Assembly: GCF_022458985.1 (NCBI RefSeq)
Contig: NC_061772.1
Coordinates: 12,390,001 to 12,454,000, forward strand
Origin: Mugil cephalus
Taxonomy: Eukaryota; Chordata; Actinopteri; Mugiliformes; Mugilidae
Direction: 5' to 3'
Length of the DNA: 64,000 bases
The stretch's first letter is position 1. Every line of letters begins with the position of its first letter. Position numbers and translations under genes: made by a program. The notes below the pieces were generated by a model. The model worked only from the letters and a program-made list of their open reading frames with translations, did not search any database and was not told the origin of the DNA. Below are positions 30,303-53,364 of the stretch, piece by piece.

Positions 30303-30957
30303 GATAGGAGTTTAGAATGAGTCAAGCCTGCAGGTTATTTTAAACAACAGGGGTCATAGTAAAATGAACTCCCGTCCATATAGATGACACCTTAAAGCGT
30401 AACTAGTTCATAGAGGTAACAGACTGACAAATCCAATGGCAACACTTTATGGGTGTTAATAGAATAACAAGGAGTCTGACTATTATGTCTGACTATTATT
30501 TGGCTTAAATAACATTATCTTAGTTCTGCTTACATTTAAAAGTAGTTTTGAGTCAGTGAGAGTGTGCTGCAATAGGTTAAAAAAATTACTGAGTCATCAA
30601 ATGTCGTTGACATAAAATATAAAGATAATAGACGCCAAGGGCAAAAAACATGGGAAATGATGGTGTAAATCAAACACACAGATGAAGAGCAGTTAAAAAA
30701 CAACTTAATTATGAAATACAAGTGCTGTGTGCAATGGAATCTGAGTTGGATATGGATATGTCCTGTAAATCACATGAGTGATGCTCAAATGATCTAACGG
30801 TCAGTTTATGTGGAACTTGTGGTTAATGCATGAATCAGTCTTGTGAAGAAATCCTGTCCCTGTGCAGTGTATAAATAAAGGGAAGTGAAGCCTTGCTTCT
30901 ACAGTATTTTGTTTTGTTCATCATTCAGACACCACTGTGAGCACCTCCCATCGCAGC
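30303..30957 (+). repeat. Compacted copy of array flanking sequence upstream of receptor 1
   Basis: Bases from about 30340 to 30650 match the 3' flank of receptors 2 and 3 (about 41660-41946 and 46135-46420). Bases from about 30655 to 30750 match about 43777-43866. From about 30755 to the ATG they match the proximal promoter at 44836-45040. The same three blocks are further apart in the units of receptors 3 and 4, so about 1 kb has been lost between the second and third blocks here. Confidence 0.75.
30870..30878 (+). promoter_or_regulatory. TATA box of receptor 1
   Basis: TATAAATAA lies 88 bases before the ATG, in the context GTGCAGTG-TATAAATAA-AGGG. Receptors 2-4 have the same box at exactly the same distance (40476, 44953, 48375). 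A start near 30900 is inferred, giving a 5' UTR of about 60 bases. Confidence 0.75.
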
Positions 30958-31980
30958 ATGAACAATACAACTGAGCCCTCTCCTTCAGTGGCCCCTGAGG
31001 AGTTTGTTGGTGAGGTAGCAGTGGCTTGTGTGATCCTTGGCTTGTCCTTCCTGGTTGGAGCTCCGGGGAACCTGCTGGTGATCTGGACTATCCTGAGACA
31101 CGTCAAGCAACGCTCTCATACTGTGGTACTGATCCTGCACCTGGCTGCTGCAGACCTGCTGGTCCTCATCACATTGCCTATTTGGATATACTCCCTGGCG
31201 GACACATGGGTGTTTGGAGTTGCGCTGTGCAAGACTCTGGGGTATGTCATCAACGCCTGCATGTACAGCAGCATCTTCTTCATCACCCTTATGAGTGTGG
31301 AGCGCTATCTAGCCATCTGTCGTCCATTTGTGATGATGCGCTGGAAGACCAAGAGCACTGTGAACAGATGTCTTTTACTTTTTTGGCTCCTTGCTTTCCT
31401 TCTTGGGATGCCTGCATTGTCCGGTACTACTGGTGAAACAAATGGAACTGAGCAGTGTCTATATAGGGAGTACACCTCTAAGACCCAAGAAATTATGTTT
31501 TTATGCATGGAGATTTTGGTGGGCTTTGTAATCCCTTTCACTGTTCTTAGTGTCTGTTATTCTCTAGTAGCTGTGCAGCTCAAGAAAATGAGGTTCAACT
31601 CAAAACAGAAATCTATGGTTCTTATTCACGCTGTGGTGATTGCTTTCACAGTGTGCTGGTTGCCTTACCACATTATCAACATTATTAATCTGGATTGCCG
31701 CCTGGGATCGGACATAGGACATGAATGTTTACCACAGAGTGTTACCCTTGGCTCTGGAGCCCTGGCTTTTATCAGCAGTTCAGTGAATCCTGTGTTATAC
31801 GCCTTCCTTTCAAGAAGCTTCCGAGGGAATATGGAGGACTCAAAGCTAGTCAGGCTGTTCCGGGAAGTAACCGCTCAAACAAACAAACTCATGGACCTGT
31901 CAGCACAACAGGCGACTAACCAGGGGACAGCACATACACAGCAAGAGTTAGTGTGTATTCACACCAGGAATGTCCGATAG
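30958..31980 (+). CDS. Leukotriene B4 receptor-like GPCR, array copy 1
   Basis: Single coding exon, 340 residues. The ATG at 30958 is chosen because the upstream in-frame extension has no methionine. Class A GPCR marks: an N-glycosylation site in MNNTTEP, TM1 GNLLVIW, TM2 AAADLLVLITLPIW, a disulphide cysteine at the TM3 start (ALCK), SVERYLAICRPF at the TM3 end, TM6 FTVCWLPYH, TM7 SSVNPVLYAF and helix 8 SRSFRGNM. The overall pattern is closest to the LTB4R family of chemoattractant receptors, which couple Gi to leukocyte migration. The second extracellular loop is of the TTGETNGTEQCLYREYT type shared with copies 4 and 5. The third loop (LDCRLGSDIGHECLPQS) resembles copies 2 and 3. The C-terminus differs from other copies, ending LVCIHTRNVR, because the 3' end is joined to unrelated sequence. 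Confidence 0.85.
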   Translation: MNNTTEPSPSVAPEEFVGEVAVACVILGLSFLVGAPGNLLVIWTILRHVKQRSHTVVLILHLAAADLLVLITLPIWIYSLADTWVFGVALCKTLGYVINACMYSSIFFITLMSVERYLAICRPFVMMRWKTKSTVNRCLLLFWLLAFLLGMPALSGTTGETNGTEQCLYREYTSKTQEIMFLCMEILVGFVIPFTVLSVCYSLVAVQLKKMRFNSKQKSMVLIHAVVIAFTVCWLPYHIINIINLDCRLGSDIGHECLPQSVTLGSGALAFISSSVNPVLYAFLSRSFRGNMEDSKLVRLFREVTAQTNKLMDLSAQQATNQGTAHTQQELVCIHTRNVR

Positions 31981-32679
31981 TTCACTTGCTTTGGTCCAGA
32001 CCTTTTAAAAAAAACTTGGTTCGCTTTGTATTCACATTGCATTTTTTGACAAGCGGACCAACATTGTGAACAAACCCACATGTGTCCCATAGCTGCTCAA
32101 TCAGGGCCGTATGCAGGGCCCAAAAAATACTGAGGTCATGAGTCAGAACTTCTAAGCGGTTACAGGGGCATGCTCCCCTGGAAAGTGTTTTAATTCCATT
32201 ATTCAAATCTGTCCATTTTCAGAGTCTTAAGGAGCAAAAACATCATCATTATGACTTTTGATTGACCTTTCTTTTGTTTGTTATCAGAGAATATCACCCT
32301 CATCCTAATGATTTGCAAATGAATCCCATTTTAAAACTGGAGAATGAATTCAGCCTTTTTGTCCCTATCCTGTTTTCCCTTTAGTGAAGAATAAAAACAC
32401 ACACAGTCAAAATACTAAACTGACAATATGCCATTTAAATTATTTGTATTCAGATGTGTCAGAAATCTTAAAAAACCTTGAGGGCGGTGCAGAGCTTTTG
32501 AATATTTGAGGTAAAAATGGGGCATATTATTATTTTGAAAACCAGATGTTTCATTTTGTTTCTGCGCAAGACTTCCTGTCTCGCACACTCTGCTCTGTGC
32601 TGTGTTTCTGCGTTGTGCTCCGGCATCTGGTGTCTACCAGATATGTTCGGCCATAGACATAATAAAGAGTTACTGGAAA
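31981..32679. other. Spacer after receptor 1, no gene recognised
   Basis: This sequence does not match the 3' flank of the other receptors, so the array homology breaks at or just before the receptor 1 stop. No protein family was recognised. A short inverted match of about 40 bases around the marker CAGATATGTTCGGCC (about 32638) recurs at about 38185 on the other strand. Confidence 0.5.
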
Positions 32680-35112
32680 ATAACTGTGTTGGCTTTATTT
32701 GTGTTCTTTGTCGAAATATATAAGGAGTGGCAGAGACAGATCAGTTTGGAAATACCTTCCACTTTACATGAAGTGGTTCTACCAGAAATAGTAAGATCTC
32801 TGGTTAACCAATAACTTAGTGATTTCTTCATATCAATAATACGGTAAGCAATATTAGTATCTTCTCTTCTAATTAAGACTTTTGATATCATCAGTCCTAA
32901 ATATTTAACTTCAGATGCAACTCTAATAGAAGCAATAGAGGAGTCAGAGCTTGTATGAATAGGGAGCAGTTCACATTTTTTGATATTAAGAGATAGGACA
33001 GAAGCTTTGGAAAAAACTAAGATAATGCTGAGAGTTTTTTCTACCATTGATTTATCTTTTAAAAAGATGGCTGTATCATCCGCAAATTGACTTATTCTAA
33101 ATTCCTTGTTAAGGATTGTTATTCCTTGTATGACACTGGAATTATTTTAAAAGTAATGTTAATAATTGTGTTGCAAGTATAAAAAGCTTTGGGGAAATGG
33201 GACATCCTTGTCGAATACCACGTGACACCATAAATCTAGGAGTCATTCCTGGGTTCAGAGAGACCGTGCTAATGATGTCAGTGTAAAGCATTTTAATGAT
33301 GTCACAGAATTTACTTCCAAAGCCCAGAAAATGTATGCTGTTTTTGTTTTCAACAAAAAGGGATGTTCAATTGTATCAAAAGCCTTGAAAAAATCTAAAA
33401 ACAATACATAACTGTCAGTTGCAATAAACTCTCCATAATCTAGCAGGTCAAGAGTCAATCTAGTATGATTGCGTATGTTTCTACCCTTCACAAAGGCTGA
33501 TCGGCTCTCATCAACTAATTTTGATAACCCCATGTCTAATCTATTGGAATATACATGAGTTAACAACTTGTAATCATTACACAGCAAGGTTATCAGCCTC
33601 CAATTATCTAGCAGCAGGTTATCCTTATTGGGCTTTGGGATCAAGGTGATAATACCCCGTTTCATGGTAGGGGACAGATGACCATTCCAGAAATGTATAT
33701 TAAATTCCACTGTTAACTCATCATGTCCTGGCGACTTTCCTTTTGACATCAGTCCAATTGCAACATCTAATTCTTCTATTCTAGGCTCCTCCTCCATACA
33801 TTGTCTAAAATGTTCATCAATTATTTTGTTACAATCCCTCATTTTATCAAAAAAAGTTTGTCAATCAACAAGTGAAAATTTTGATGTATGTAACTTGTTA
33901 TAAAAAATATCTTATTTCCTCATTGACTTCATCTTGGTTGTCAGTGCTAGTATTATTAATAAGTAGCCTATTAATTCATTTATTTATTTTTTAATTTTTC
34001 AAGGCTGAAGAAGTAGGAAGTATTTTTTTTTTTTATATTGTCCAGTTGATTTTGCAGATTATTTAATTCGACTTGTTCTTCTAAAGGTAGGTCTGTTTTT
34101 TGACACAAAGTATTCACAACACTAATAAGATCTTGTTGTTGTTTTTTCCTAACTTCAGATATGTATTTACTTGTTTTAATGGCAACTTATTTAATTTTAA
34201 ATGTAAACCACTCCCATTTACTCAAGGATGACATTTCTAATTGATTAATTTCTGGTTTCATTGCAGAACTCCTCATTGTCAAGGAGGCTACTATTGAATT
34301 TCCATAAAGAGTTAAATATGGGCTCAATCCCACCCAGTCGGACGGATTGAAACAGCGCAATGACCAGTTATTGGTGATACTGATATGTCACATTTTAATA
34401 CCCCATTTATTAGGATGATAGATATTAACCAAAAGTCTAAACGTGGGTCACTTTCCAACTCTCTATCAGCCTACTCAGAGAAGAACACAGTTGTTTGTTC
34501 TGTGCTCTTCTGTTGAGCCATATATACAGATTAAGACAAAATTAGCGGCATAGTACTCAATCGCCAACATTAACCAATGTCCATGGATGTCACTTGTGCG
34601 GTTAATTATATTTCCAGAAAATCTGTTGAACAGGATCATTACTCTAGCTGAGTGTGAAGTCCCATAACCGAAGGAAACATGGTCTCCCCATTGCTCTTTC
34701 CAAAAATTGGTATCCGCCTCCACTGAATGAGTCTATTACTTTTTTGCTCCTTACACAAAAGACAAGATGCCTTATGCTTTACATTGTTTTTTTAATCCCC
34801 TAGTATTTAAAGAAAGAAAAGATAACATTCACTTAATAAACAGGTGTGTGTGAAGAACATGATGCGCAGGAATGAGTAAAATGGGATCCACACGACTGTT
34901 GTCATGAGGGCATAACCTTCTTTCAGGAAAGCTCTCTTCCCCTTCTTCCTTGCCTCCTGGACCAGTGGTCACAGCTTGGAACAAGCCTTCCTATCTTCCT
35001 TAGAGAAGTCCTCTCTAAAACGAATATGCATTTCCCTACACACTTGTGCTTCTTTCGATCTTTTCCAAACTTCTTCCCGAACGGTTCTCATCCCGAATTG
35101 AGTTTTTCTCGC
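32680..35112 (-). mobile_element. L1/Tx1-like LINE, 3' segment (end of ORF1, endonuclease, reverse transcriptase)
   Basis: Read on the minus strand, the order is that of a LINE. About 35110-34860 is the ORF1 C-terminal domain (TVREEVWKRSKEAQVCREMH, then HIRFREDFSKEDRKA and ARKKGKRAFLKEGYAL). 34723-34475 is AP-type endonuclease (FWKEQWGDHVSFGYGTSHSA). About 34230-33960 is linker with LNNLQNQLDNI. 33842-33255 is reverse transcriptase (GKSPGHDELTVEF and FLDFFKAFDTIEHP). 33047-32670 is the RT thumb (VKYLGLMIS, YWLTRDLTISGRTTSCKVEG). There are several stops and frame shifts. The C-terminal end of ORF2 and the 3' UTR are missing, so the element was cut after insertion. Confidence 0.85.
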
Positions 35113-37410: not shown

Positions 37411-38000
37411 ACCTAGACGGTGGACTGTGTCCACAGCATCTCACAGCCTATCCACGGACATCGGCATGACTCGTGTAAGTATTCCAATGACTGTTTCTCT
37501 TGTGTTTTCTCCACCCTTTTCTGGTAGACCAGTTAGTCTCAGGTTCCATCTCCTCGTATATCGAGACTAATCCTTAGCTGCGTTCGTAAGTTCACTGTGT
37601 TCCAGTTGAAACTCGTCCATCTTTTTTTTTTTTTTTTTAGCAGAAAAACTTCTTGTTTGTTGTCTCTTGTCGCCATAGCATTAGCTTCCATGCGCTTGTC
37701 AAAGCTTTTTTATAGTTCAGTCTGTTCATCCATGGTTCCGGTCAGAGCCTGTATTGCGTGGAGAATGGTGTCGCTGATGACCACTTCCTCCCCGTTGTTA
37801 TCTTTCCCCTTCATCTTCTTAGGGTTTGGGCTGTTAATTGGAGTATGAGTTGGATAACGAAACTACTTTTTGTGGAAGATCTCTCGCCCGCCTCTATGCC
37901 CGTGATGTCACTGTCATCACAGAGACGTGGAAGGCAGATAAATTGAAACTATGGTCGGACATATTAGCATCCACGTCTTTCTCAAAAACTTCAAATAAAC
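37411..38000 (-). mobile_element. L1/Tx1-like LINE, 5' segment (ORF1 start, coiled coil and RRM)
   Basis: A minus-strand ATG at 37962 begins MSDHSFNLSAFH. Decayed coding follows: SDTILHAIQALTGTMDEQ, then KRMEANAMATRDNKQEVFLL (coiled-coil part), then RRWNLRLTGLPEKGGENTRE and DAVDTVHRL (the RRM-type core of L1 ORF1). The segment stops at 37411, exactly where the inserted DNA element begins. The sequence expected next (RTVREEVWKRS) appears at about 35.1 kb, so this and the 32.68-35.11 kb piece are one LINE split by an insertion. Confidence 0.75.
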
Positions 38001-38722
38001 TTGAAAAATTACCTAAAACTTTCGTGAAGTAGTACACAGAGTTAAATATTAATGGGGTTAGCGGCTTGTTGCAAAAACAAATACTATTTAGGCCAAAACA
38101 AACTTTTTTAAACAGAGCCTGCAATAATGCTGCTTTTCACTCCCATCTCGGATCCTCCCCCCATAGATATACATCTATGCTATGGGCCGAACATATCTTG
38201 CAGGCAGAACACATCTGGGACACATTTATAACAGGTTCAAGATCATAAATTGAGAAATCAAGACTGAATAAACGTTTCATTTTCAATCGAAGACGTCGCT
38301 AACATATCAATCGAAAAATGACTGTTGAACCGATGGAAATTGATGACCGTTACTGACGAAGTTAACCAAAATTAAACATTGAATCAATGTTTCCTTGCTA
38401 TCTGAGTAGAGTAGTACGCTGGGCTGCAATAAAAAATATTCCCACATGAAAATGATTTTTTTTTCTCACTCGTCTACTCTCCACCTGCATGTACTGACTC
38501 ACTAATATAGGGATAACATTCTTGGTGTCCGACTTGTGTGTGGTAGTTATCATGGAGACAGTGCCTGTTGTTGATGTAGTGCAGCACGTATGCCCAAACT
38601 CTCAAGCTACTGATTTCAAATCTTCAAATATAAAATCACCTGACGGTTTTGTGGGAGACCAAGATCATCGTCCTGCAGTCATTTTCACTGCATTTACACT
38701 ATTTTAAAATTGATGGATTGAT
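38001..38722. other. Spacer between two LINE 5' copies
   Basis: No gene was recognised. It may include decayed LINE 5' UTR sequence because it lies upstream of ORF1 on the minus strand. Confidence 0.4.
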
Positions 38723-38934
38723 CGTTGTTATTTTTCCCCTTCATCTTCTTGGGGTTTGGGCTGTTAATTGTATGAGTATGAGTTGGATAACGAAACTACT
38801 TTTTGTGGAAGATCTCTCGCCTGCCTCTATGCCCGTGATGTCACTGTCATCACATAACTCGTGGAAGGCAGATAAATTGTAGCTATGGTCGGACATATTA
38901 GCATCCACGTCTTTCTCAAAAACCTCAAATAAAC
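38723..38934 (-). mobile_element. Second copy of the LINE ORF1 start (direct repeat of 37794-38000)
   Basis: About 210 bases repeat 37794-38000 with only a few differences. On the minus strand the frame reads MSDHSYNLSAFHELCDDSD and ITGIEAGERSSTKSSFVIQL, longer open than the other copy. It stops at the same internal point (GTTGTTA), so it is a truncated second copy or a local duplication. Confidence 0.7.
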
Positions 38935-38986
38935 AGTGCATTTTTTTCTGTGCCTACGTTGACCCATGGCTTATTCTTGGTATAAA

Positions 38987-39026
38987 ACAGAAATGAATGA
39001 ATGAATGAATGAATGAATGAATGAAA
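38987..39026. repeat. GAAT/ATGA tetranucleotide microsatellite
   Basis: About nine GAAT units lie in the spacer before the first 3.4-kb array unit. Confidence 0.95.
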
Positions 39027-40475
39027 TGACTGATGACCGATCACAACATTTTTTGGAACTTTTTTGTTCATGCTATAGCAGTTAGCATCGATCACACGTT
39101 TTTGTTTTTTTTCTTGTTTTTGCGGACAAAACTGTTGCTTGTTTTTCCTTTGGACACCTGCGGCGAATGGATTAAGTTCGTTTAACTTCAAGGCCGCCGT
39201 TAGTTGATGGATTTATTTGCATTTAATTACATTGTTTATGACACTGAATTTAATTTGTCAAAAATGCTGATCTGAATAAACCTGAAGGTGTGAAACCCCA
39301 GCACAGCAGCAATCTGTGCTGATTTATTCTTTATAATTTACATTGAAATGATGGTGTAAATCAAACACACAGATGAAGAGCAATTAAAAAACAAACAGAG
39401 TTGGAAGAGGAAATGACACAATTACTGTAAATCACAGTCATCACAGGACTTCACACACTCTAAGGCAGGGTACAGCCTGGATCTCAAGGACGTAGAACTG
39501 AAAGTGAAAGCATATTGTCAGCCTGGTAGCTTTTAATCCATAGAAAGATGAATGTAATAATGCACTGGTCTTCATATCAGAATCAATCAATAAATAGAAT
39601 TATCAAACAAATGAACAATGTGGAGTCATTTTGGCGACTTGGGAATGTTTAGGGACTGTAATCATTAATTATTCATATGGTCACCACCCATTCAACTGCT
39701 GGAGATGACAAAGTCCATAGTTAAGTGGTGTGGGAGCCTTTAGTCATAAATGTTAGTGAGAGAAGAATGAGGTCATGTCAGTTGGACTATCGTTGTAGAT
39801 AGTGTCGAGATTTTTTGTTTTATTTTTCCAAGAAACCTAATTGTTCGTTTGCCAACCACAAGGTGTTAGTGTTAGCTGTCTGTGTCTGTTGGAAAAACAA
39901 TGTTATATCATGTTTTTATGAAAGTACAAAAGGTGATTCAATATATCGACATAAGAGTAAGTACATTTCCTTCATTTGGTTTAGTTGTTTATTTTAATAG
40001 TGTGAAGGGAACTCACAAATGGAGAATTTCATTGCTCAGTGTAACCTTTGCCGTGTATATGACAGTAAACTTGAATGTGAATCTTGAATCCTTCTGATTT
40101 TGATAGTGAAAACTCATATTGACTAATTGATTGTGTACTTATTTACTTGACTCAGCTGGAGGGAATCTGACACTGACACTGATTTAGATTTATATAATAA
40201 CTACGAAAGATCCTTTTGTTCACCATGCAATAATATGTGTGCCTGGCTTGTTCTCCAATAGAAATGGGTAATATAGTTTCTCACCAAGTCATGGACAAAA
40301 CTGTATTCTCTTAACATTGTGAGCTTATTATCATGTCATCATTAACACAGTTGGAACTATGATATGTCCTTTAAATCACATGAGTGAAGCTCAAATGATC
40401 TAATGGTCAGTTTATGTGGAACTCGTGGTTCATGCATGGATCAGTCTTGTGAAGAAACCCTGTCCCTGTGCAGTG

Positions 40476-40484
40476 TATAAATAA
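40476..40484 (+). promoter_or_regulatory. TATA box of receptor 2
   Basis: TATAAATAA lies 88 bases before the ATG, as in receptors 1, 3 and 4. Confidence 0.75.
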
Positions 40485-40563
40485 AGGGAAGTGAAGCCTT
40501 GTTTCTACAGCATTTTGTTTTGTTCATCATTCAGGCACCACTGTGAGCACATACGATCGCAGC

Positions 40564-41583
40564 ATGAACAATATAACTGAGCCCTCTCCTTCAGTGGCCC
40601 CTGAGGAGTCTGTTGGTGAGGTAGCAGTGGCTTGTGTGATCCTTGGCTTGTCCTTCCTGGTTGGAGCGCCGGGGAACCTGCTGGTGATCTGGACTATCCT
40701 GAGACACGTCAAGCAACGCTCTCATACTGTGGTACTGATCCTGCACCTGGCTGCTGCAGACCTGCTGGTCCTCATCACATTGCCTATTTGGATATACTCC
40801 CTGGCGGACACATGGGTGTTTGGAGTAGCACTGTGCAAGATTTTGGCATATGTCATCAATGCCTGCATGTACAGCAGCATCTTCTTCATCACCCTTATGA
40901 GTGTGGAGCGCTATGTAGCCATCTGTCGTCCATTTGTGATGATGCGCTGGAAGTCCAACAGCACCATGAACAGATGTCTTGTACTTTTTTGGCTCCTTGC
41001 TTTCCTTCTTGGAGTGCCTGCATTGGAGAGTCGTACTGTTGATGAACGTAACGAAACTAAGCGGTGTCATTATAAGGACTGCACCTCTAACAATCAAGGA
41101 ATTATTAACCTATGTCTTCAGGTTTTGGTGGGCTTTGTAATCCCTTTCACTGTTCTTAGTGTCTGTTACTCTCTAGTAGCTGTGCAGCTCAAGAAAATGA
41201 GGTTCAACTCAAAACAGAAATCTATGGTTCTTATTCACGCTGTGGTGATTGCTTTTACAGTGTGCTGGTTGCCTTTCCACATTATCAACATTATTAATCT
41301 GGTTTGCTGCCTGCATTCGGACATAGGACATGAATGTGTACCTCAGAGTGTTGTCCTTGGCTCTGGAGCCCTGGCTTTCATCAGCAGTTCAGTGAATCCT
41401 GTGTTATACGCCTTCCTTTCAAGAAGCTTCCAAGGGAATATGAAGGACTCAAGGCTAGTCAGGCTGTTCAGGGAAGTAACCACTCAAACAAACAAACTCA
41501 TGGACCTGGCAGCACAACAGGAGACTGGCCAGGGGACAACAATTACAAAGGAGGAGTTGCTGTGTGACTCCCTATGTAAATAA
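40564..41583 (+). CDS. Leukotriene B4 receptor-like GPCR, array copy 2
   Basis: Single coding exon, 339 residues, ending LLCDSLCK. The seven-helix marks are as in copy 1: GNLLVIW, AAADLLVL, SVERYVAICRPF, FTVCWLPFH and SSVNPVLYAF. The second extracellular loop is of a different type from copy 1, ESRTVDERNETKRCHYKDCT, with an N-glycosylation site (NET) and strongly basic character. This type is shared with copy 3. The third loop reads LVCCLHSDIGHECVPQS. TM3 begins ILAYVINACMYSS. The third intracellular loop KKMRFNSKQKS matches copy 1 but the helix 8 tail (FQGNMKDSRL) matches copy 3, so the copy is mosaic. It is probably functional: all family motifs are present and the frame is intact. Confidence 0.85.
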   Translation: MNNITEPSPSVAPEESVGEVAVACVILGLSFLVGAPGNLLVIWTILRHVKQRSHTVVLILHLAAADLLVLITLPIWIYSLADTWVFGVALCKILAYVINACMYSSIFFITLMSVERYVAICRPFVMMRWKSNSTMNRCLVLFWLLAFLLGVPALESRTVDERNETKRCHYKDCTSNNQGIINLCLQVLVGFVIPFTVLSVCYSLVAVQLKKMRFNSKQKSMVLIHAVVIAFTVCWLPFHIINIINLVCCLHSDIGHECVPQSVVLGSGALAFISSSVNPVLYAFLSRSFQGNMKDSRLVRLFREVTTQTNKLMDLAAQQETGQGTTITKEELLCDSLCK

Positions 41584-42008
41584 TACTCTGAATCTTTGAA
41601 ACTGTGATGCCTAAGAAAATGTGTTTTATGCAGTTAATACATGGTTGCAACAATAAGGATCATAGTAAAACGAACTCCTTTTTCCAGCATCAGTCCATAT
41701 AGATGACACCTTGAGGCGTAACTAGTTCATAGAGCTAACAGACTGACAAATCCAATGGCAACACTTTATGGGTGTTAATAGAACAACAAGGAGCCTGACT
41801 ATTATTTGGCTCAAATAACATTATCTTAGTTCTGCTTACATTTAAAAGTAGTTTTTGGTCAGTGAGAGTGTGCTGCAATAGGTCAAAACCATCGAGTCAT
41901 CAAATGTCATTGACATAAAATATGAAGATAATAGACAGCAAAATAGTCCCTCAGGTAACTACCTTTTCGTGACCAGCTCAATTGGACATGTTTCACACAT
42001 TTGTTTAA

Positions 42009-43041: not shown

Positions 43042-44952
43042 TTAAATAACTATGTGGACGGCTAGTCACTTCGCAACATTGCTTGATAAACTAGCCAACA
43101 ATCATAAGTGCAAAAAACATGGTAGTAGACATTATTCATCACTGTACGTCATCCATTGGTTGAACTCATTTTATTAGTAATGTTACATCAACTCATCAGA
43201 CCACTTCACTTATCCACATTAAGTAATGTGACAAATAAACAGTAAATTCTTATAGTAGTAAAACTGTGGTGGGAAGTGGCCTGTGTTCATTTTAGAAATT
43301 AACAGATTATTCTGAGCTGTATAAATCTGTTCTTTTGGTGAACTCTGTAAATCTTAACCACCATGAAACTGTGTCTACTTCAGGTTTTAGTTCCTCTCCT
43401 CCTCTCAGAGCTTCCAAAGGGGTAGACTGAGCATCGGCATCAGTCAAAACAACAGACATGGTTTAAGTTGCTGAGGGTTTAGGTAATCATGTGAACTTTA
43501 ACCCATACTTCAAAGTACAGCTAACGACAGAGAAAAAGCAAATGTGTTTTGAATTATTGAATATTTGATCTTAATGGATATGACTACCTTATTTGCATTT
43601 ATCTACATACATTTTCTGTGGTGTTAGTTGATGGATTTATTTGCATTTAATTACATTGTTTATGACACTGAATTTAATTTGTCAAAAATGCTGATCTGAA
43701 TATATCTGAAGGTGTGAAACCCCAGCACAGCAGCAATCTGTGCTGATTTATTCTTTATAATTTACATTGAAATGATGGTGTAAATCAAACACACAGTTGA
43801 AGAGCAATTTAAAAAACAACTTAATTATGAAATACAAGTGCTGTGTGCAATGGAATCCGAGTTGGAAGAGGAAATGACACAATTACTGTAAATCACAGTC
43901 ATCACAGGACTTCACACACTCTAAGGCAGGGTACAGCCTGGATCTCAAGGACGTAGAACTGAAAGTGAAAGCATATTGTACTCCTGGTAACTTTTAATCC
44001 ATAGAAAGATGAATGTAATAATGCACTGGTCTTCATATCAGAATCAATCAATAAAAAGAATTATCAAACAAATGAACAATGTGGAGTCATTTTGACAACT
44101 TGGGAATGTTTAGGGACTGTAATCATTAATTATTCATATGGTCACCACCCATTCAACTGCTGACAAAGACCATAGTAAAGAGGTGTGGAAGTGCGGGAAC
44201 AAATTCCCTGTAAATGTTACTAAGAGAAGAATGAGGAGATGATTCTGACGTCCCTTTCAGGTCAGTTGGACTTTCGCAGTAGATAGTGTCAAGAGATTTC
44301 TTTTTTGTTTTCCAAGAAACCTAATTGTTTGTTTGCCAACCACAAGGTGTTAGTGTTAGCAGTCTGTTGGAAAAACAATTTTATATCATATTTTTATGAG
44401 AGTACAAAAGGTGATTCAACATATCGACATAAGAGTAAGTATATGTCCTTCATTTTAGTTTAGTTGTTTGTTTTAATAGTGTGAAGGGAACTCGCAAATG
44501 AAGAATTTCATTGCTCAGTGTAACCTTTGCCGTGTATATGACAGTAAACTTGTGAATCTTGAATCTTACTGATTTTGATAGTGAAAACTCATATTGACTA
44601 ATTGATTGTGTACTTATTTACTTGACTCAGGTGGAGGGAATCTGACATTGACACTGATTTAGATTTACATAAAACAACTACGAAAGATCCTTTTGTTCAC
44701 CATGCAATACTATGTGTGCCTGGGTTGTTCTCCAATAGAAATGGGTAATATAGTTTCTGACCAAGTCATGGACAAAACTGTATTCTTTTAATATTATGAG
44801 CATATTATCAAATCATCATTAACACAGTTGGAACTATGATATGTCCTTTAAATCACATGAGTGAAGCTCAAATGACCTAATGGTCAGTTTATGTGGAACT
44901 TGTGGTTCATGCATGGATCAGTCTTGTGAAGAAACCCTGTCCCTGTGCAGTG

Positions 44953-44961
44953 TATAAATAA
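44953..44961 (+). promoter_or_regulatory. TATA box of receptor 3
   Basis: TATAAATAA lies 88 bases before the ATG, in the same context as in copies 1, 2 and 4. Confidence 0.75.
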
Positions 44962-45040
44962 AGGGAAGTAAAGCCTTGTTTCTACAGCATTTTGTTTTGT
45001 TCATCATTCAGGCACCACTGTGAGCACATACGATCGCAGC

Positions 45041-46009
45041 ATGAACAATATAACTGAGCCCTCTCCTTCAGTAGCCCCTGAGGAGTCTGTTGGTGAGGTA
45101 GCAGTGGCTTGTGTGATCCTTGGCTTGTCCTTCCTGGTTGGAGCTCCGGGGAACCTGCTGGTGATCTGGACTATCCTGAGACACGTCAAGCAACGCTCTC
45201 ATACTGTGGTACTGATCCTGCACCTGGCTGCTGCAGACCTGCTGGTCCTCATCACATTGCCTATTTGGATATACTCCCTGGCGGACACATGGGTGTTTGG
45301 AGTTGCACTGTGCAAGACTTTGGGGTATGTCATCAACGCCTGCATGTACAGCAGCATCTTCTTCATCACCCTTATGAGTGTGGAGCGCTATGTAGCCATC
45401 TGTCGTCCATTTGTGATGATGCGCTGGAAGACCAACAGCACCATGACCAGATGTCTTGTACTTTTATGGCTCCTTGCTTTCGTTCTTGGGATGCCTGCGC
45501 TGGAGATTCGTACTGTTGATGAACATAACGAAACTAAGCGGTGTCATTATGAGGGCTGCACCGCTAAGAAAAAAGGAATTATTAACCTATGTCTTCAGGT
45601 TTTGGTGGGCTTTGTAATCCCTTTCACTGTTCTTAGTGTCTGTTACTCTCTAATAGCTGTGCAGCTCAAGAAAATGAGTTACAACTCAAAACAGAAATCT
45701 ATGGTTCTTATTCACGCTGTGGTGATTGCTTTCACAGTGTGCTGGTTGCCTTTCCACATTATCAACATTATTAATCTGATCTGCTGCCAGCGATCGGACA
45801 TAGGACATGAATGTGTACCACAGAGTGTTATCCTGAGCTCTGGAGCCCTGGCTTTCATCAGCAGTTCAGTGAATCCTGTGTTATACGCCTTCCTTTCAAG
45901 AAGCTTCCAAGGGAATATGAAGGACTCAAGGCTAGTCAGGCTGTTCAGGGAAGTAACCACTCAAACAAACAAACTCATGGACCTGGCAGTACAACAGCAG
46001 ACTGGCTAG
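45041..46009 (+). CDS. Leukotriene B4 receptor-like GPCR, array copy 3, shortened tail
   Basis: Single coding exon, 322 residues. It is close to copy 2 through all seven helices; loop 2 reads EIRTVDEHNETKRCHYEGCT and loop 3 LICCQRSDIGHECVPQS. A TAG stop follows QQQTG where copy 2 has CAG. In the same frame beyond it, the sequence still reads the tail ELLCDSLCK up to the ancestral stop at about 46057. About 16 cytoplasmic C-terminal residues are thus lost by one base change. The seven-helix core is intact, so the receptor may well work. Tail serines and threonines that bear on arrestin binding and internalisation may be reduced. Confidence 0.85.
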   Translation: MNNITEPSPSVAPEESVGEVAVACVILGLSFLVGAPGNLLVIWTILRHVKQRSHTVVLILHLAAADLLVLITLPIWIYSLADTWVFGVALCKTLGYVINACMYSSIFFITLMSVERYVAICRPFVMMRWKTNSTMTRCLVLLWLLAFVLGMPALEIRTVDEHNETKRCHYEGCTAKKKGIINLCLQVLVGFVIPFTVLSVCYSLIAVQLKKMSYNSKQKSMVLIHAVVIAFTVCWLPFHIINIINLICCQRSDIGHECVPQSVILSSGALAFISSSVNPVLYAFLSRSFQGNMKDSRLVRLFREVTTQTNKLMDLAVQQQTG

Positions 46010-48374
46010 GGGGCAGCAGTTACAAAGGAAGAGTTGCTGTGTGACTCCCTATGTAAATAATACTCTGAATCTTTGAAACTGTGATGCCTAAGAAAATGTG
46101 TTATATGCAGTTAATTCATGGTTGCAACAATAAGGATCATAGTAAAACGAACTCCTTTTTCCAGCATCAGTCCATATAGATGACACCTTGAGGCGTAACT
46201 AGTTCATAGAGCTAACAGACTGACAAATCCAATGGCAACACTTTATGGGTGTTAATAGAACAACAAGGAGCCTGACTATTATTTTGCTCAAATAACATTA
46301 TCTTAGTTCTGCTTACATTTAAAAGTAGTTTCTGGTCAGTGAGAGTGTGCTGCAATAGGTCAAAACCATCGAGTCATCAAATGACATTGACATAAAATAT
46401 GAAGATAATAGACAGCAAAATAGTCCCTCAGGTAACTACCTTTTCGTGACCAGCTCAATTGGACATGTTTCACACATTTGTTTAAATAACTATGTGGACG
46501 GCTAGTCACTTCGCAACATTGCTTGATAAACTAGTCAACAATCATAAGTGCAAAAAACATGGTAGTAGACATTATTCATCACTGTACGTCATCCATTGGT
46601 TGAACTCATTTTATTAGTAATGTTACATCAAGTCATCAGACCACTTCACTTATCCACATTAAGTAATGTGACATATAAACAGTAAATTCTTATAGTAGTA
46701 AAACTGTGGTGGGAAGTGGCCTGTGTTCATTTTAGAAATTAACAGATTATTCTGAGCTGTATAAATGTGTTCTTTTGGTGAACTCTGTAAATCTTAACCA
46801 CCATGAAACTGCGTCTACTTCGGGTTTTAGTTCCTCTCCTCCTCTCAGAGCTTCCAAAGGGGTAGACTGAGCATCGGCATCAGTCAAAACAACAGACATG
46901 GTTTAAGCTGCTGAGGGTTTAGGTAATCATGTGAACTTTAACCCATACTTCAAAGTACAGCTAACGACAGAGAAAAAGCAAATGTGTTTTGAATTATTGA
47001 ATATTTGATCTTAATGGATATGACTACCTTATTTGCATTTATCTACATACATTTCCTGTGGTGTTAGTTGATGGATTTATTTGTATTTAATTACATTGTT
47101 TATGACACTGAATTTAATTTGTCAAAAATGCTGATCTGAATAAACCTGAAGGTGTGAAACCCCAGCACAGCAGCAATCTGTGCTGATTTATTCTTTATAA
47201 TTTACATTGAAATGATGGTGTAAATCAAACACACAAATGAAGAGCAATTAAAAAATAATTTAATTATGAAATACAAGTGCTGTGTGCAATGGAATCCGAG
47301 TTGGAAGAGGAAATGACACAATTACTGTAAATCACAGGACTCCACACAGCCTGCTTTCTCAAGGATGTAGAACTGAAAGTGAAAGCATATTGTACTCCTG
47401 GTAGCTTTTAATCCATAGAAAGATGAATGTAATGATGCACTGGTCTTCATATCAGAATCAATCAATAAAAGGAATTATCAAACAAATGAACAATGTGGAG
47501 TCATTTTGACAACTTGGGAATGTTTAGGAATTGTAATCATTAATTATTCATATGGTCACCACCCATTCAATTGCTGACAAAGACCATAGTAAAGAGGTGT
47601 GGGAGTACAGGAACAAATTCCCTGTAAATGTTACTAAGAGAAGAATGATGAGATGATTCTGACGTCCCTTTCAGGTCAGTTGGACTTTCGCAGTAGATAG
47701 TGTCAAGAGATTTTTTTGTTTTCCAAGAAACCTAATTGTTCGTTTGCCAACCACAAGGTGTTAGTGTTAGCTGTCAGTGTCTGTTGGAAAAACAATTTTA
47801 TATCATATTTTTATGAGAGTAGAAAAGGTGATTCAATATATCGTCATAAGAGTAAGTATATGTCCTTCATTTTAGTTTAGTTGTTTATTTTAATAGTGTG
47901 AAGGGAACTCGCAAATGAAGAATTTCATTGCTCAGTGTAACCTTTGCCGTGTATATGACAGTAAACTTGTGAATCTTGAATCTTTCTGATTTTGATAGTG
48001 AAAGCTCATATTGACTAATTGATTGTGTACTTATTTACTTGACTCAGGGGGAGGGAATCTGACACTGACACTGATTTAGATTTATGTAAAATAACTACGA
48101 AAGATCCTTTTGTTCACCATGCAATACTATGTGTGCCTGGCTTGTTCTCCAATAGAAATGGGTAATATAGTTTCTGACCAAGTCATGGACAAAACTCTAT
48201 TCTCTTAACATTGTGAGCTTATTATCATGTCATGTCATCATTAACACAGTTGGAACTATGATATGTCTTTTAAATAACATGAATGAAGCTCAAATGATCT
48301 AATGGTCAGTTTATGTGGAACTTGTGGTTAATGCATGAATCAGTCTTGTGAAGAAACACTGTCCCTGTGCAGTG

Positions 48375-48383
48375 TATAAATAA
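48375..48383 (+). promoter_or_regulatory. TATA box of receptor 4
   Basis: TATAAATAA lies 88 bases before the ATG. The start region downstream (GCATTGCTCCGACACC) differs slightly from copies 1-3. Confidence 0.75.
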
Positions 48384-48462
48384 AGGGAAGTGAAGCATTG
48401 CTCCGACACCATTTTGTTTTGTTCATCATTCAGGCACCACTGTGAGCACATACGATCGCAGC

Positions 48463-49476
48463 ATGAACAATATAACTGAGCCCTCTCCTTCAGTGGCCCC
48501 TGAGGAGTCTGTTGGTGAGGTAGCAGTGGCTTGTGTGATCCTTGGCTTGTCCTTCCTGGTTGGAGCTCCGGGGAACCTGCTGGTGATCTGGACTATACTG
48601 AGACACGTCAAGCAACGCTCTCATACTGTGGTACTGATCCTGCACCTGGCTGCTGCAGACCTGCTGGTCCTCATCACATTGCCCATTTGGATATACTCCC
48701 TGGTGGACACATGGGTGTTTGGAGTAGCACTGTGCAAGATTTTGTGGTATGTCATCAACGCCTGCATGTACAGCAGCATCTTCTTCATCACCCTTATGAG
48801 TGTGGAGCGCTATCTAGCCATCTGTCGTCCATTTGTGATGATGCGCTGGAAGACCAAGAGCACTGTGAACAGATTTCTTGTACTTTTTTGGCTTCTTGCT
48901 TTCCTTCTTGGGGTGCCTGCATTGTTGACCGGTACTACTGATGAAACAAATGGAACTGAGCAGTGTCTATATAGGGAGTACACCTCTAAGACCCAAGAAA
49001 TTCTGTTTTTATGCATGGAGACTTTGGTGGGCTTTGTAATCCCTTTCACTGTTCTTAGTGTCTGTTACTCTCTAATAGCTGTGCAGCTCAAGAAAATGAG
49101 TTACAACTCAAAACAGAAATCTATGGTTCTTATTCACGCTGTGGTGATTGCTTTCACAGTGTGCTGGTTGCCTTACCACATTATCAACATTATTAATCTG
49201 GTTTGCGACCTGCTATCAGGCGAAGAACATGGATGTGTACCACAGATTGTTAGCCTTGGCTCTGGAGCCCTGACTTTTATCAGCAGTTCAGTGAATCCTG
49301 TGTTATACGCCTTCCTTTCAAGAAGCTTCCGAGGGAATATGGAGGACTCAAAGCTAGTCAGGCTGTTCAGGGAAGTAACCACTCAAACAAACAAACTCAT
49401 GGACCTGTCAGCACAACAGGAGACTGACCAGGGGGCAGCACATACACAGCAAGAGATACTGTCTGATTCTCTGTGA
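48463..49476 (+). CDS. Leukotriene B4 receptor-like GPCR, array copy 4
   Basis: Single coding exon, 337 residues, ending EILSDSL. The N-terminus (MNNITEPSPSVAPEES) is identical to copies 2 and 3. From TM2-TM3 onward it follows copy 5: LVDTWVFGVALCKILWYVIN, loop 2 LTGTTDETNGTEQCLYREYT and loop 3 LVCDLLSGEEHGCVPQI. The third intracellular loop KKMSYNSKQKS matches copy 3 instead. It is therefore the clearest mosaic of the array. All class A motifs are present (GNLLVIW, ERYLAICRPF, CWLPYH, NPVLY), so it is likely functional. Confidence 0.85.
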   Translation: MNNITEPSPSVAPEESVGEVAVACVILGLSFLVGAPGNLLVIWTILRHVKQRSHTVVLILHLAAADLLVLITLPIWIYSLVDTWVFGVALCKILWYVINACMYSSIFFITLMSVERYLAICRPFVMMRWKTKSTVNRFLVLFWLLAFLLGVPALLTGTTDETNGTEQCLYREYTSKTQEILFLCMETLVGFVIPFTVLSVCYSLIAVQLKKMSYNSKQKSMVLIHAVVIAFTVCWLPYHIINIINLVCDLLSGEEHGCVPQIVSLGSGALTFISSSVNPVLYAFLSRSFRGNMEDSKLVRLFREVTTQTNKLMDLSAQQETDQGAAHTQQEILSDSL

Positions 49477-50369
49477 AAATGATACTGAAAACGTGAATCT
49501 TTGAAACTGTGAAGCTTAAGGAAATGTGTTTTATGCAGTTTCATAAAGAGACTTATGTGTGATACGATATGGCTGTATTACTTACATATGTTATACGCAC
49601 ACATTGTTTATTCACATTAACACAATCTTGTGAAACCATAATTTTGTGTGTTTTGTTCCCTTTTTTATTTTTTTTAATGAATTATACATTATATTATATT
49701 ATGACCCCTTTTCTCTTTTTATGTTTGTATAATGTGCAATAATGATTAAATGTGTGAATGTGTGATGAAATGAAAGTCCTCTGAATCATTGTTTTTGAAC
49801 ACTGTTTCATGGAAACACAGACACTTTTTGCTTTCACTTATTGTTTACACATTAAGGATCATTAAAATATCCCCTTTTGTGGATTAAAAAAAAATAAATC
49901 AGGTCCTCTTTTCACCTGCGACCCCTGAGTGAAATAAGTCAGTGAAATTCGTGATTGTTAAAGTGATGCTTTTGTTTTTTAATTCATCGTTCCAAAGAAA
50001 CAAGTAGATAAATCGGAACACATCGTAAATAAATAATTATCTCCTGGTTGAAAATCCCATTACAACACTTTTCTTCTTGAACTATCTAACTGAGTATAGT
50101 AACCATTATAATTATGACAGTAGATTGTGCCAATTTCTTTCAAAAATGCTTCTGTTACTCTTTTATAAGTGAAGACATTTTTTTATGAATTTCTGGGGTG
50201 TAAATTGACTTATGTCTCACTGAATGAGTCACTTCACTGTGTCTCAAACAGCCCTGGGAGGAAACCCTGTTCCTGTGCAGTCTATACTTAAAGGGAAGTG
50301 AGGACTTACTATACAGCAATTTGTTTTTCTTTTCATGCAGACACCCCAGTCAGCACATACCCTTCTAGC
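49477..50369 (+). repeat. Intergenic block, near-identical to 51390-52278
   Basis: The spacer between receptors 4 and 5 and the spacer between receptors 5 and 6 match almost base for base, with small indels (for example ACATTAAGG against ACAAGG near 49850/51763). It contains the 3' UTR of the preceding gene and the proximal promoter of the next. The promoter is TATACTTAAAGGG in place of TATAAATAAAGGG, followed by a possible acceptor CATGCAG before ACACCCCAG. No gene lies inside. Confidence 0.92.
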
Positions 50370-51389
50370 ATGAACCGCTCAACTGAGCTCTATTTTCCAA
50401 AGGAAATGGCCCCCGAGGAGTCTGTTGGTGAGGTAGCAGTGGCTTGTGTGATCCTGATCTTGTCCTTCCTGGTTGGAGCTCCGGGGAACCTGCTGGTGAT
50501 CTGGACTATCCTGAGACACGTCAAGCAACGCTCTCATACTGTGGTACTGATCCTGCACCTGGCTGCTGCAGACCTGCTGGTCCTCATCACATTGCCTATT
50601 TGGATATACTCCCTGGTGGACACATGGGTGTTTGGAGAAGCACTGTGCAAGATTTTGTGGTATGTCATCTACGCCTGCATGTACAGCAGCATCTTCTTCA
50701 TCACCCTTATGAGTGTGGAGCGCTATCTAGCCATCTGTCGTCCATTTGTGATGATGCGCTGGAAGACCAAGAGCACTGTGAACAGATTTCTTGTACTTTT
50801 TTGGCTTCTTGCTTTCCTTCTTGGGGTGCCTGCATTGTTGACCGGTACTACTGGTGAAACAAATGGAACTGAGCAGTGTCTATATAGGGAGGACACCTCT
50901 AAGACCCAAGAAATTCTGTTTTTATGCATGGAGACTTTGGTGGGCTTTGTAATCCCTTTCACTGTTCTTAGTGTCTGTTACTCTCTAATAGCTGTGCAGC
51001 TCAAGAAAATGAGGTTCAAGTCAAAACAGAAATCTATGGTTCTTATTCACGCTGTGGTGATTGCTTTCACAGTGTGCTGGTTGCCTTACCACATTATCAA
51101 CATTATTAATCTGGTTTGCGACCTGCTATCAGGCGAAGAACATGGATGTGTACCACAGATTGTTAGCCTTGGCTCTGGAGCCCTGACTTTTATCAGCAGT
51201 TCAGTGAATCCTGTGTTATACGCCTTCCTTTCAAGAAGCTTCCGAGGGAATATGGAGGACTCAAAGCTAGTCAGGCTGTTCAGGGAAGTAACCACTCAAA
51301 CAAACAAACTCATGGAGCTGTCAGCACAACAGGAGACTGACCAGGGGGCAGCACAGTCACAGCAAGAGATACTGTCTGATTCTCTGTGA
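50370..51389 (+). CDS. Leukotriene B4 receptor-like GPCR, array copy 5
   Basis: Single coding exon, 339 residues. It starts MNRSTELYFPKEMAPEESVG; a second in-frame ATG follows at 50406, and the first is chosen because the same N-terminus is kept in copy 6. The body is nearly identical to copy 4, including loop 2 (LTGTTGETNGTEQCLYREDT) and loop 3 (CDLLSGEEHGCVPQI). It differs at the third intracellular loop (KKMRFKSKQKS) and at FGEALCKILWYVIYACMYSS. All helix motifs are intact. Its promoter is of the weaker TATACTTAAA type shared with copy 6. Confidence 0.85.
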   Translation: MNRSTELYFPKEMAPEESVGEVAVACVILILSFLVGAPGNLLVIWTILRHVKQRSHTVVLILHLAAADLLVLITLPIWIYSLVDTWVFGEALCKILWYVIYACMYSSIFFITLMSVERYLAICRPFVMMRWKTKSTVNRFLVLFWLLAFLLGVPALLTGTTGETNGTEQCLYREDTSKTQEILFLCMETLVGFVIPFTVLSVCYSLIAVQLKKMRFKSKQKSMVLIHAVVIAFTVCWLPYHIINIINLVCDLLSGEEHGCVPQIVSLGSGALTFISSSVNPVLYAFLSRSFRGNMEDSKLVRLFREVTTQTNKLMELSAQQETDQGAAQSQQEILSDSL

Positions 51390-52278
51390 AAATGATACTG
51401 AAAACGTGAATCTTTGAAACTGTGAAGCTTAAGGAAATGTGTTTTATGCAGTTTCATAAAGAGACTTATGTGTGATACGATATGGCTGTATTACTTACAT
51501 ATGTTATACGCACACATTGTTTATTCACATTAACACAATCTAGTGAAACTATAATTTTGTGTGTTTTGTTCCCTTTTTTATTTTTTTTAATGAATTATAC
51601 ATTATATTATATTATGACCCCTTTTCTCTTTTTATGTTTGTATAATGTGCAATAATGATTAAATGTGTGAATGTGTGATGAAATGAAAGTCCTCTGAATC
51701 ATTGTTTTTGAACACTGTTTCATGGAAACACAGACACTTTTTGCTTTCACTTATTGTTTACACAAGGATCATTAAAATATCCCCTTTTGTGGATTAAAAA
51801 AAATAAATCAGGTCCTCTTTTCACCTGCGACCCCTGAGTGAAATAAGTCAGTGAAATTCGTGATTGTTAAAGTGATGCTTTTGTTTTTTAATTCATCGTT
51901 CCAAAGAAACAAGTAGATAAATCGGAACACATCGTAAATAAATAATTATCTCCTGGTTGAAAATCCCATTACAACACTTTTCTTCTTGAACTATCTAACT
52001 GAGTATAGTAACCATTATAATTATGACAGTAGATTGTGCCAATTTCTTTCAAAAATGCTTCTGTTACTCTTTTATAAGTGAAGACATTTTTTTATGAATT
52101 TCTGGGGTGTAAATTGACTTATGTCTCACTGAATGAGTCACTTCACTGTGTCTCAAAAAGCCCTGGGAGGAAACCCTGTTCCTGTGTAGTCTATACTTAA
52201 AGGGAAGTGAAGACTTACTATACAGCAATTTGTTTTTCTTTTCATGCAGACACCCCAGTCAGCACATACCCTTCTAGC
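51390..52278 (+). repeat. Second copy of the 0.9-kb intergenic block
   Basis: This direct repeat of 49477-50369 lies between receptors 5 and 6. The repeat continues into receptor 6 to about 52420 and, on the left, back through receptor 5 relative to receptor 4. The offset is 1,909-1,913 bp. Confidence 0.92.
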
Positions 52279-53364
52279 ATGAACCGCTCAACTGAGCTCT
52301 ATTTTCCAAAGGAAATGGCCCCTGAGGAGTCTGTTGGTGAGATAGCAGTGGCTTGTGTGATCCTGGGCTTGTCCTTCCTGGTTGGCACTCCGGGGAACCT
52401 GCTGGTGATCTGGACTATCCTGAGACATGTCAAACAGCGCTCTCACACTGTGGTGCTGATTCTACACCTGGCTGTTGCAGACCTGCTGGTCCTCATCACC
52501 TTGCCTATTTGGATCTACTCTCTTGCGCACTCCTGGGTCTTTGGGGAGGCCTCCTGCAAAGCCATGGTGTTTGTGATCTACGCCTGTATGTACAGCAGCG
52601 TTTTCCTCATCACTGTTATGAGCGTGGAGCGCTTTGTGGCCGTGCGCTATCCCTTCGCCTCGGCTAACTGGAAGAGAGAACGAGCTCTGAATAAAGTACT
52701 GCTGGTTCTGTGGACTGCGGCGTTCTTGTTCAGCATACCCGTGATCCCAACCCAGGTTGTTCAGGAGGATGAAGGTGAGGAGCATTGCCTGTACCGCCTG
52801 TATACTTCTGTCACCCAGGAACTGGTGTGTGTCCTGCTGGAGACGCTCGTAGGCTACATAATACCCTTCTCCGTCCTCGTGGTCTGCTATGGCTGCCTGT
52901 GTAGCCGGATCACTCAGATGTCCTTCAAGTCCAAACGCAAGTCCACTATCTTGATTACCAGCATAGTGATTGTGTTTGCCATTTGTTGGACACCTCACCA
53001 CGTAGGAAATATCCTCTCGCTCATCATCCTGGCCATTCAAGACTCCTCCAGCGATACAGCGCACACACTGGAGAGTGTCAGGAGCACCATGACTTTCATC
53101 GCCGGGGCCATGGTTTTCATCAGCAGCACGGTTAACCCCATTCTCTACATTTTCGCGGCTCGTTCCTTCAGGAACTCCCTGCGTGACACCGGCATGCAGA
53201 AGCTCTTCCGCCACATCTCCAGCACCTCCCCAGGTGAGGGAAACAGAGAGGTGTCCTTTGTGTCCAAGAGGCAGAGCAATCAGACCAGCAGCTCTCACTG
53301 TGTATCTGAGTCAAAAGACCAAATTAATATATTAATAAACATGTGTGAGAACAATCCACTGTGA
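52279..53364 (+). CDS. Divergent leukotriene B4 receptor-like GPCR, array copy 6
   Basis: Single coding exon, 361 residues. The first roughly 45-50 residues are nearly identical to copy 5. Synonymous changes then become frequent from about 52425 and protein identity falls beyond TM2. It has LAVADLLVL, FGEASCKAMVFVIYACMYSS, SVERFVAVRYPF (ERF in place of ERY), loop 2 QVVQEDEGEEHCLYRLYT (acidic, no glycosylation site), TM6 FAICWTPHHVGN, and TM7 SSTVNPILYIF. The longer serine-rich tail includes SKRQSNQTSSSHCVSES and ends NMCENNPL. It is the only copy with an independent body and probably represents the older receptor next to which the others expanded. It is intact. Confidence 0.85.
   Translation: MNRSTELYFPKEMAPEESVGEIAVACVILGLSFLVGTPGNLLVIWTILRHVKQRSHTVVLILHLAVADLLVLITLPIWIYSLAHSWVFGEASCKAMVFVIYACMYSSVFLITVMSVERFVAVRYPFASANWKRERALNKVLLVLWTAAFLFSIPVIPTQVVQEDEGEEHCLYRLYTSVTQELVCVLLETLVGYIIPFSVLVVCYGCLCSRITQMSFKSKRKSTILITSIVIVFAICWTPHHVGNILSLIILAIQDSSSDTAHTLESVRSTMTFIAGAMVFISSTVNPILYIFAARSFRNSLRDTGMQKLFRHISSTSPGEGNREVSFVSKRQSNQTSSSHCVSESKDQINILINMCENNPL

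Follow-up and report, generated by a model that had tools for sequence, protein, structure and literature searches.

The receptor array

The present study concerns a 64,000-nucleotide stretch of the Mugil cephalus genome (RefSeq assembly GCF_022458985.1, NC_061772.1, positions 12,390,001 to 12,454,000 of the forward strand), referred to as the window, in which all positions below are counted unless another contig is named. The genome comprises 634.8 Mb in 24 contigs, and the window is part of contig 3. Between 30958 and 53364, it contains six single-exon genes for class A G protein-coupled receptors (GPCRs) on one strand (+), and the explanation that we favor with good confidence is that of a recombining six-gene tandem array, which forms a clade beside the leukotriene B4 (LTB4) receptors BLT1 and BLT2 and in which the fifth copy is the product of a crossover. 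The six open reading frames (ORFs) and their strand had been recognized in an earlier note made from the letters of this DNA, and this was borne out by a whole-genome profile search in which Pfam 7tm_1 was above the cut-off in all six copies.

Copy 1 (30958..31980, 340 amino acids (aa), 188.6 bits for 7tm_1) is followed by copy 2 (40564..41583, 339 aa), copy 3 (45041..46009, 322 aa), copy 4 (48463..49476, 337 aa), copy 5 (50370..51389, 339 aa), and copy 6 (52279..53364, 361 aa), a divergent receptor gene that has its 5' end in common with the other copies. Copies 1 and 6 also matched 7tm_1 in a separate Pfam search at the level of the window. The earlier note called all six genes intact, and six open frames are indeed present; however, a stop in copy 3, visible in the alignment, leaves a C-terminal tail 17 residues shorter than that of copy 2. 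The class A landmarks C91, C167, R116, W234, N277-P278, and Y281 are identical in all copies, which thus have the cysteines of transmembrane helix (TM) 3 and extracellular loop (ECL) 2, W6.48, and the NPxxY motif, together with ERY in copies 1-5 and ERF in copy 6. A whole-genome search with copy 2 returned 119 matches and, among the best candidates for which identity was scored, the six array copies were 55-100% identical and all others 42% or less. No gene fragments beyond the six were found in the window at E 0.01, and NCBIfam gave no match for the three of the six copies searched. The predicted structure of copy 1 (mean predicted local distance difference test score 40.7) was too poor for use. 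A TATA-like sequence lies within 130 bases before each ATG (GTATAAATAAAGG in copies 1-4 and CTATACTTAAAGG in copies 5 and 6), and nearer the ATG each copy also has a sequence similar to a 3' splice site.

The array would have grown by tandem duplication from two old neighbors, one of the copy 6 type and one of the copy 1-5 type, and recombination would have reshaped it later. Older tandem blocks on the + strand pair 39199-42008 with 43623-46485 (93.1%) and 43042-46112 with 46482-49540 (93.2%). A stretch 5' of copy 1 (30343..30633, +) is 83-84% similar to the sequence 3' of copies 2 and 3, and is possibly the trace of a gene copy lost upstream of copy 1.

Copy 5 and probable exchange among the copies

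The evidence for recombination is clearest at copy 5. A direct repeat of 94.9% identity (48338-50732 and 50246-52641, +) ends within copy 6, and the spacer between copies 4 and 5 (49477..50369, +) is repeated between copies 5 and 6 (51390..52278, +); the two spacers are mismatched at 5 of 889 aligned bases (0.56%), and their alignment has 4 gap letters. From codon 22 onward, copies 4 and 5 differ at only 15/957 bases, whereas over the initial 63 bases of copy 5 a 6-base gap separates them and 12 of the 57 aligned bases are mismatched. Where copies 4 and 6 can be told apart, copy 5 has the copy 6 base at 388/390 sites upstream of the gene and at 11/11 in the first 40 bases, and the copy 4 base at 604/614 thereafter, a count that is inflated beyond base 300, where copy 6 is very divergent in any case. 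The unbroken copy 6-type run ends at 50406 and the first copy 4-type site stands at 50433 (+), so that one parent is seen upstream and the other downstream of a single junction, with the spacer repeated on each side. Because spacers, body, junction, and repeat end fit one unequal crossover exactly, we read from this pattern that copy 5 is a copy 4/copy 6 hybrid in which the changeover from one parent to the other falls within codons 13-22. Such an event would have joined the upstream region and N-terminus of copy 6 to the seven-helix body of copy 4, and would have left the copy 4-to-copy 6 spacer on both sides of the product. Copy 5 may consequently place the ligand pocket of copy 4 under the upstream control of copy 6. 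One feature weighs against a simple history: 3' of the crossover, copy 5 shares columns 87, 269, 301, and 651 with copy 6 alone, which one crossover does not account for and which need a small additional exchange or convergence.

Copy 6 appears to have taken part in an older exchange as well. Its silent divergence from copies 1-5 is 0.36-0.44 in TM1-ECL1 and 1.2-1.8 in TM3-intracellular loop (ICL) 2, and is mostly saturated beyond; for copies 4 and 6, silent differences number 19/57 in TM1-ECL1 against approximately 40/54 sites (p 2e-5), and beyond base 360, 318 of the 649 bases aligned between copies 5 and 6 are different. In the 5' direction, copy 6 differs from copies 1-4 at 22-26% of bases between approximately -120 and -50 relative to the ATG and at 29-31% in the 75 bases that follow, which reach into the first codons; further 5', about half or more differ, which amounts to no alignment. 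As the silent divergence shows, copies 1-5 and copy 6 share their 5' end, from approximately 120 bases before the ATG to TM2, which this older exchange would have given them. In copies 1-5, the GC content at third codon positions (GC3) falls from 0.64-0.67 over codons 1-135 to 0.43-0.46 over codons 136-300 (p 0.0001 to 0.002), whereas in copy 6 it is 0.67 before and 0.69 after codon 136 (p 0.8). Because GC3 is high in the 5' part of copies 1-5 and throughout copy 6, the pattern is most simply read as donation of the 5' end by a copy 6-like gene to the ancestor of copies 1-5. However, GC3 is also high at codons 91-120, a stretch in which copy 6 has already diverged strongly from the other copies, and this fits GC-biased conversion of a recombination-prone 5' end equally well.

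The hybrid nature of copy 5, the 5' end shared with copy 6, and the concentration of variable columns in the outer helix halves described below were missed by the earlier note, which had instead argued from discordant loops. Its description of near-constant sequence from the N-terminus to TM2 and across TM6-TM7 holds for copies 1-4, but the first 13 codons differ in copies 5 and 6. The loop groupings are as it described, with copies 2 and 3 set apart from 1, 4, and 5 in ECL2 and copies 1-3 set apart from 4 and 5 in ECL3, and the letters of ICL3 also match; however, the string quoted for ECL2, TETNGTEQCLYRE, is present in no copy, the actual strings being TTGETNGTEQCLYRE in copies 1 and 5 and TTDETNGTEQCLYRE in copy 4. 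The proposed disagreement between ECL2 and ECL3 was rejected, as the splits 23|145 and 123|45 are compatible and both occur in the tree (1,(2,3),(4,5)). Gene conversion or unequal crossing over, which had been deduced from this disagreement, gains its support from the copy 5 junction and from uneven silent divergence.

We compared all 15 trees of copies 1-5 on six segments, the borders of which were set after the alignment had been viewed. The tree (1,(2,3),(4,5)) was the best in TM1-ICL2, TM4-TM5, TM7-tail, and the whole alignment, and was tied best with two others in ECL3; in the N-terminal segment, none of the 15 trees was rejected. The end of TM5-TM6, which contains ICL3, was the sole segment to favor another tree. 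One tree is best or tied best in four of the six segments, and the discordance that the earlier note had claimed for the loops persists, weakly, in the ICL3 segment. In the pairwise homoplasy index (PHI) test, copies 1-4 gave p 0.012 and copies 1-5 p 0.025, and a runs test on all 44 informative sites of copies 1-4 gave p 0.0002. The longest shared run was significant in two of six pairs (p 0.0008 for copies 1 and 4, 0.002 for copies 1 and 3, and 0.07-0.53 for the other four), and upstream of copies 2, 3, and 4 the identity of the odd-one-out copy was clustered along the sequence (56 sites, p 0.0014). Copies 1-4 are alike up to TM3 and diverged in TM4, ECL2, TM5, and ECL3, and between the pairs (1,4) and (2,3) silent differences number 0-3/57 in TM1-ECL1 versus 11-12 of approximately 50 in TM4-TM5 (p 5e-5 to 0.011). 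Homogenization of the 5' half in copies 1-4 is likely from these silent sites, and gene conversion is its likely, although not proven, cause.

Several results argue against this account of copies 1-4. The main tree in the ICL3 segment is rejected by the approximately unbiased (AU) test (p-AU 0.017) but not by the Shimodaira-Hasegawa (p-SH 0.16) or Kishino-Hasegawa (p-KH 0.11) tests, and the conflict depends on 3/44 four-copy informative sites; the runs test yields p 0.34 when restricted to the 6 silent sites; and silent divergence is even within the pairs 1/4 and 2/3 (p 1 and 0.67). The array and the hybrid stand above chance, while the tree conflict among copies 1-4 is weak. Selection alone would explain copies 1-4 by a single history without conversion, in which the 5' half and TM6-TM7 are under purifying selection and the loops are relaxed or under positive selection. 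The fit of one tree to four of the six segments and to the whole alignment and the silent-site runs test agree with this explanation, as does the ratio of replacement to silent substitution rates (dN/dS), which is approximately 1 in ECL2 and ECL3 and much lower in TM1-ECL1 and TM3-ICL2 in several pairs. However, silent sites, which are not expected to track protein constraint, differ several-fold among segments at the p values given above (including that for copies 4 and 6), the PHI and all-site runs tests point to recombination, and the copy 5 junction is left unexplained, which makes selection alone improbable. The analysis of dN/dS per segment that the earlier note had proposed yielded approximately 1 for ECL2 and ECL3 combined, not significantly above 1; with silent and replacement rates not significantly different in six pairs (smallest p 0.19), positive selection in these loops was not supported. 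The highest single-loop value, 4.4 for ECL3 of copies 1 and 4, depends on 1 silent difference.

Least probable is an assembly artefact in which copy 5 and part of the mosaic stem from a falsely duplicated haplotype or from misjoining at a repeat: the two spacers flanking copy 5 are only 0.56% apart, which is within the allelic range, but the genome is assembled in just 24 contigs with 0 undetermined bases (N) in the window, the junction fuses two different genes within the coding sequence and keeps the frame open, copy 5 has private bases (e.g., columns 45, 88, 89, and 523), and plain duplication of a haplotype would repeat a gene instead of yielding a hybrid.

Relationship to BLT1 and BLT2 and the ligand pocket

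Recombination apart, the family to which the array belongs bears on what its products may recognize. Among solved structures, human BLT1 (7vkt) is the best relative for copies 1 and 6, the two copies searched, and copies 1-5 are identical to BLT1 at 92-100 of 263-264 aligned residues. Three more BLT candidates were found in the genome, a pair on contig 1 with approximately 7 kb between its members and a single gene on contig 7. In each of the three, the homology is broken into three pieces, as if by introns, whereas the array copies are single-exon. This layout resembles that of zebrafish, in which, according to the available text of the report, blt1 and blt2a are on one chromosome and blt2b is on another (PMC4349892).

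The main tree contained 32 rows, and a frame of at least 280 aa was obtained from 22 of the 23 loci L015-L033 and L035-L038; L025, which had no such frame, and L034, which lies inside the BLT candidate L060, were omitted. The exons of the BLT candidates were joined by eye, which adds uncertainty to the trees. L060 grouped with human BLT1 (support 90/78), the other two candidates, L059 and L061, were paired (100/99), and these four rows formed one clade (99/97; 98/96 in a tree of 18 of the 32 rows, on which topology tests were performed). The six array copies formed a clade of their own (98/99) outside it, and did so when only the portion after codon 136 was used, with copy 6 outermost (98/98). 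Joining the array with Blt1 was rejected (p-AU 0.016), but joining it with the Blt2-type pair was not (p-AU 0.064), which counts against its separation from the BLTs. A single-exon gene with a long branch, L015 (C21:12056499-12057320), grouped with the array at 82/89 in the 18-row tree and was unplaced in the 32-row tree; beyond contig 3, it may be the gene most closely related to the array.

Mutants R156(4.64)A, R267(7.35)A, and H94(3.29)A of BLT1 are described as nearly inactive in the available text on its structure (PMC8894450). R4.64, E5.42, Y6.51, and R7.35 were present in all four BLTs examined, and H3.29 in two of the four. In the array, with TM7 aligned without the 3-residue gap that automatic alignment places there, R7.35 is replaced in 6/6 copies (T, V, I, S, S, and T in copies 1-6), as is H3.29 (G, A, G, W, W, and V); R4.64 is replaced in four copies and kept in two, Y6.51 is replaced in three, and E5.42 in two. 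M3.36, Y3.37, G5.46, W6.48, H6.52, and F7.43 are conserved in all six copies. Among copies 1-5, 26 of 103 columns are variable in the outer helix halves compared with 7 of 101 in the inner halves (p 0.0005; helix borders and halves are approximate), and residues at the pocket entrance vary, which suggests receptors with a constant core and inner face and differing outer pocket surfaces. A concentration of these changes at the ligand contacts of BLT1 was not supported (5/16, p 0.094 with TM7 ungapped; 4/16, p 0.23 with the gap of the aligner).

A true BLT1 or BLT2, responsive to LTB4 or 12-HHT, would agree with the top place of human BLT1 among the solved relatives of copies 1 and 6, with the six conserved pocket residues, with the unrejected union with the Blt2-type pair, and with a level of identity to BLT1 near the 38% given for zebrafish Blt1 versus human in the available text of that report (PMC4349892). 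In opposition to this, three other genes in this genome group with human BLT1 and have a zebrafish-like chromosome layout, union with Blt1 is rejected, and R7.35 and H3.29 are lost from all copies and R4.64 from four, although H3.29 is also lacking in two of the four BLTs. This identity is as improbable as selection alone, and the array more probably consists of class A receptors in a clade beside BLT1 and BLT2 that are neither of the two. The label "leukotriene B4 receptor-like" in the earlier note is accurate as a statement of best similarity only, as the clade is separate and key LTB4 contacts are lost. Since the arginines of the BLTs are lost, binding of LTB4 in the manner of BLT1 is unlikely. 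The products may be chemoattractant-type receptors for lipid or other small ligands, probably coupled to Gi by analogy with BLT1, and different copies may recognize different ligands.

Comparable systems and neighboring sequence

Compared with human BLT1 (PMC8894450) and zebrafish Blt1, Blt2a, and Blt2b (PMC4349892), as far as these are covered by the available text of both reports, the array has in common its class A membership, its best solved relative, and part of the pocket, and differs in its separate clade, in single exons versus the split frames of the BLTs in this genome, and in the losses of R7.35 and R4.64. The available description of the orphan receptors GPR190A and GPR190B places them near the LTB4 receptors (LTB4Rs) in fishes, with internal duplications in GPR190B (PMC6504862). 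The array likewise lies beside the BLTs in the tree and, to judge by this description, may correspond to GPR190, and L015 is possibly a counterpart of the other GPR190 type. The available part of the published description is silent on recombination (PMC6504862), and we found no report of recombination in LTB4R-like arrays in the open-licence literature. Should the array prove to be GPR190B, the few pocket positions at which its copies differ would make them a useful set in the search for the ligand of an orphan receptor.

Conversion between neighboring chemoattractant receptors is already known, and the array is an unusually clear new case of a recombining receptor set of this kind. In the adjoining genes CCR2 and CCR5, the accessible text describes conversion chiefly in transmembrane regions, along with fast-evolving extracellular parts (PMC2880985), and mosaicism has been argued, in a source available in part, for rhodopsin-type GPCRs at large (PMC2684142). 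The array resembles CCR2 and CCR5 as a set of adjoining GPCR genes, probably of chemoattractant type and with likely conversion, but differs in having six copies, one of which is a hybrid with an exchanged upstream region. In the CYP11B1/CYP11B2 chimera, the control region of one gene stands on the body of the other. According to the available text, this chimera arose by unequal crossing over of similar genes (PMC8750845); however, that case is an enzyme pair and a human disease allele, whereas the present one is a receptor gene in a genome assembly.

At the level of single bases, the array illustrates how a gene in a tandem receptor set may acquire, in a single step, an upstream region and a ligand pocket that were not combined before. 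A broader proposal, which we regard as doubtful, is that a copy 6-like 5' module, comprising the upstream region and the N-terminus and extending to TM2 or TM3, moved at least twice onto other receptor bodies, namely, those of the ancestor of copies 1-5 and of copy 5; the array would then be a natural receptor-swapping system, made up of orphan receptors that have lost their tuning to LTB4, in which pocket and expression are reassorted independently of each other. Because the three genes elsewhere in the genome that group with BLT1 retain ligand contacts lost by the array, the label "leukotriene B4 receptor-like" in fish genomes needs to be read with caution and not equated with function.

Pfam matches to G2BR and CUE domain pieces were found on the - strand upstream of the array (21582-22246, with more up to approximately 28370), and this combination, which we take to point to AMFR/gp78, is consistent with an AMFR/gp78-like gene on the opposite strand. 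A Pfam scan of 53.4-64 kb in four of the six frames gave no match at E 0.01, and no RNA family reached the gathering score in the window. The spacer between copies 1 and 2 is the longer one, and contains broken reverse-transcriptase pieces (RVT_1; 32673-33860, -) of a LINE-like retroelement as well as a direct repeat of approximately 210 bases and 93.9% identity (37793-38000 and 38723-38934). Elsewhere in the genome, clustered 7tm_1 matches at C21:17788460-17868848, C17:14335318-14376946, C11:12555549-12573715, C8:13714616-13723171, and C7:12194373-12202837 are probable tandem receptor arrays.

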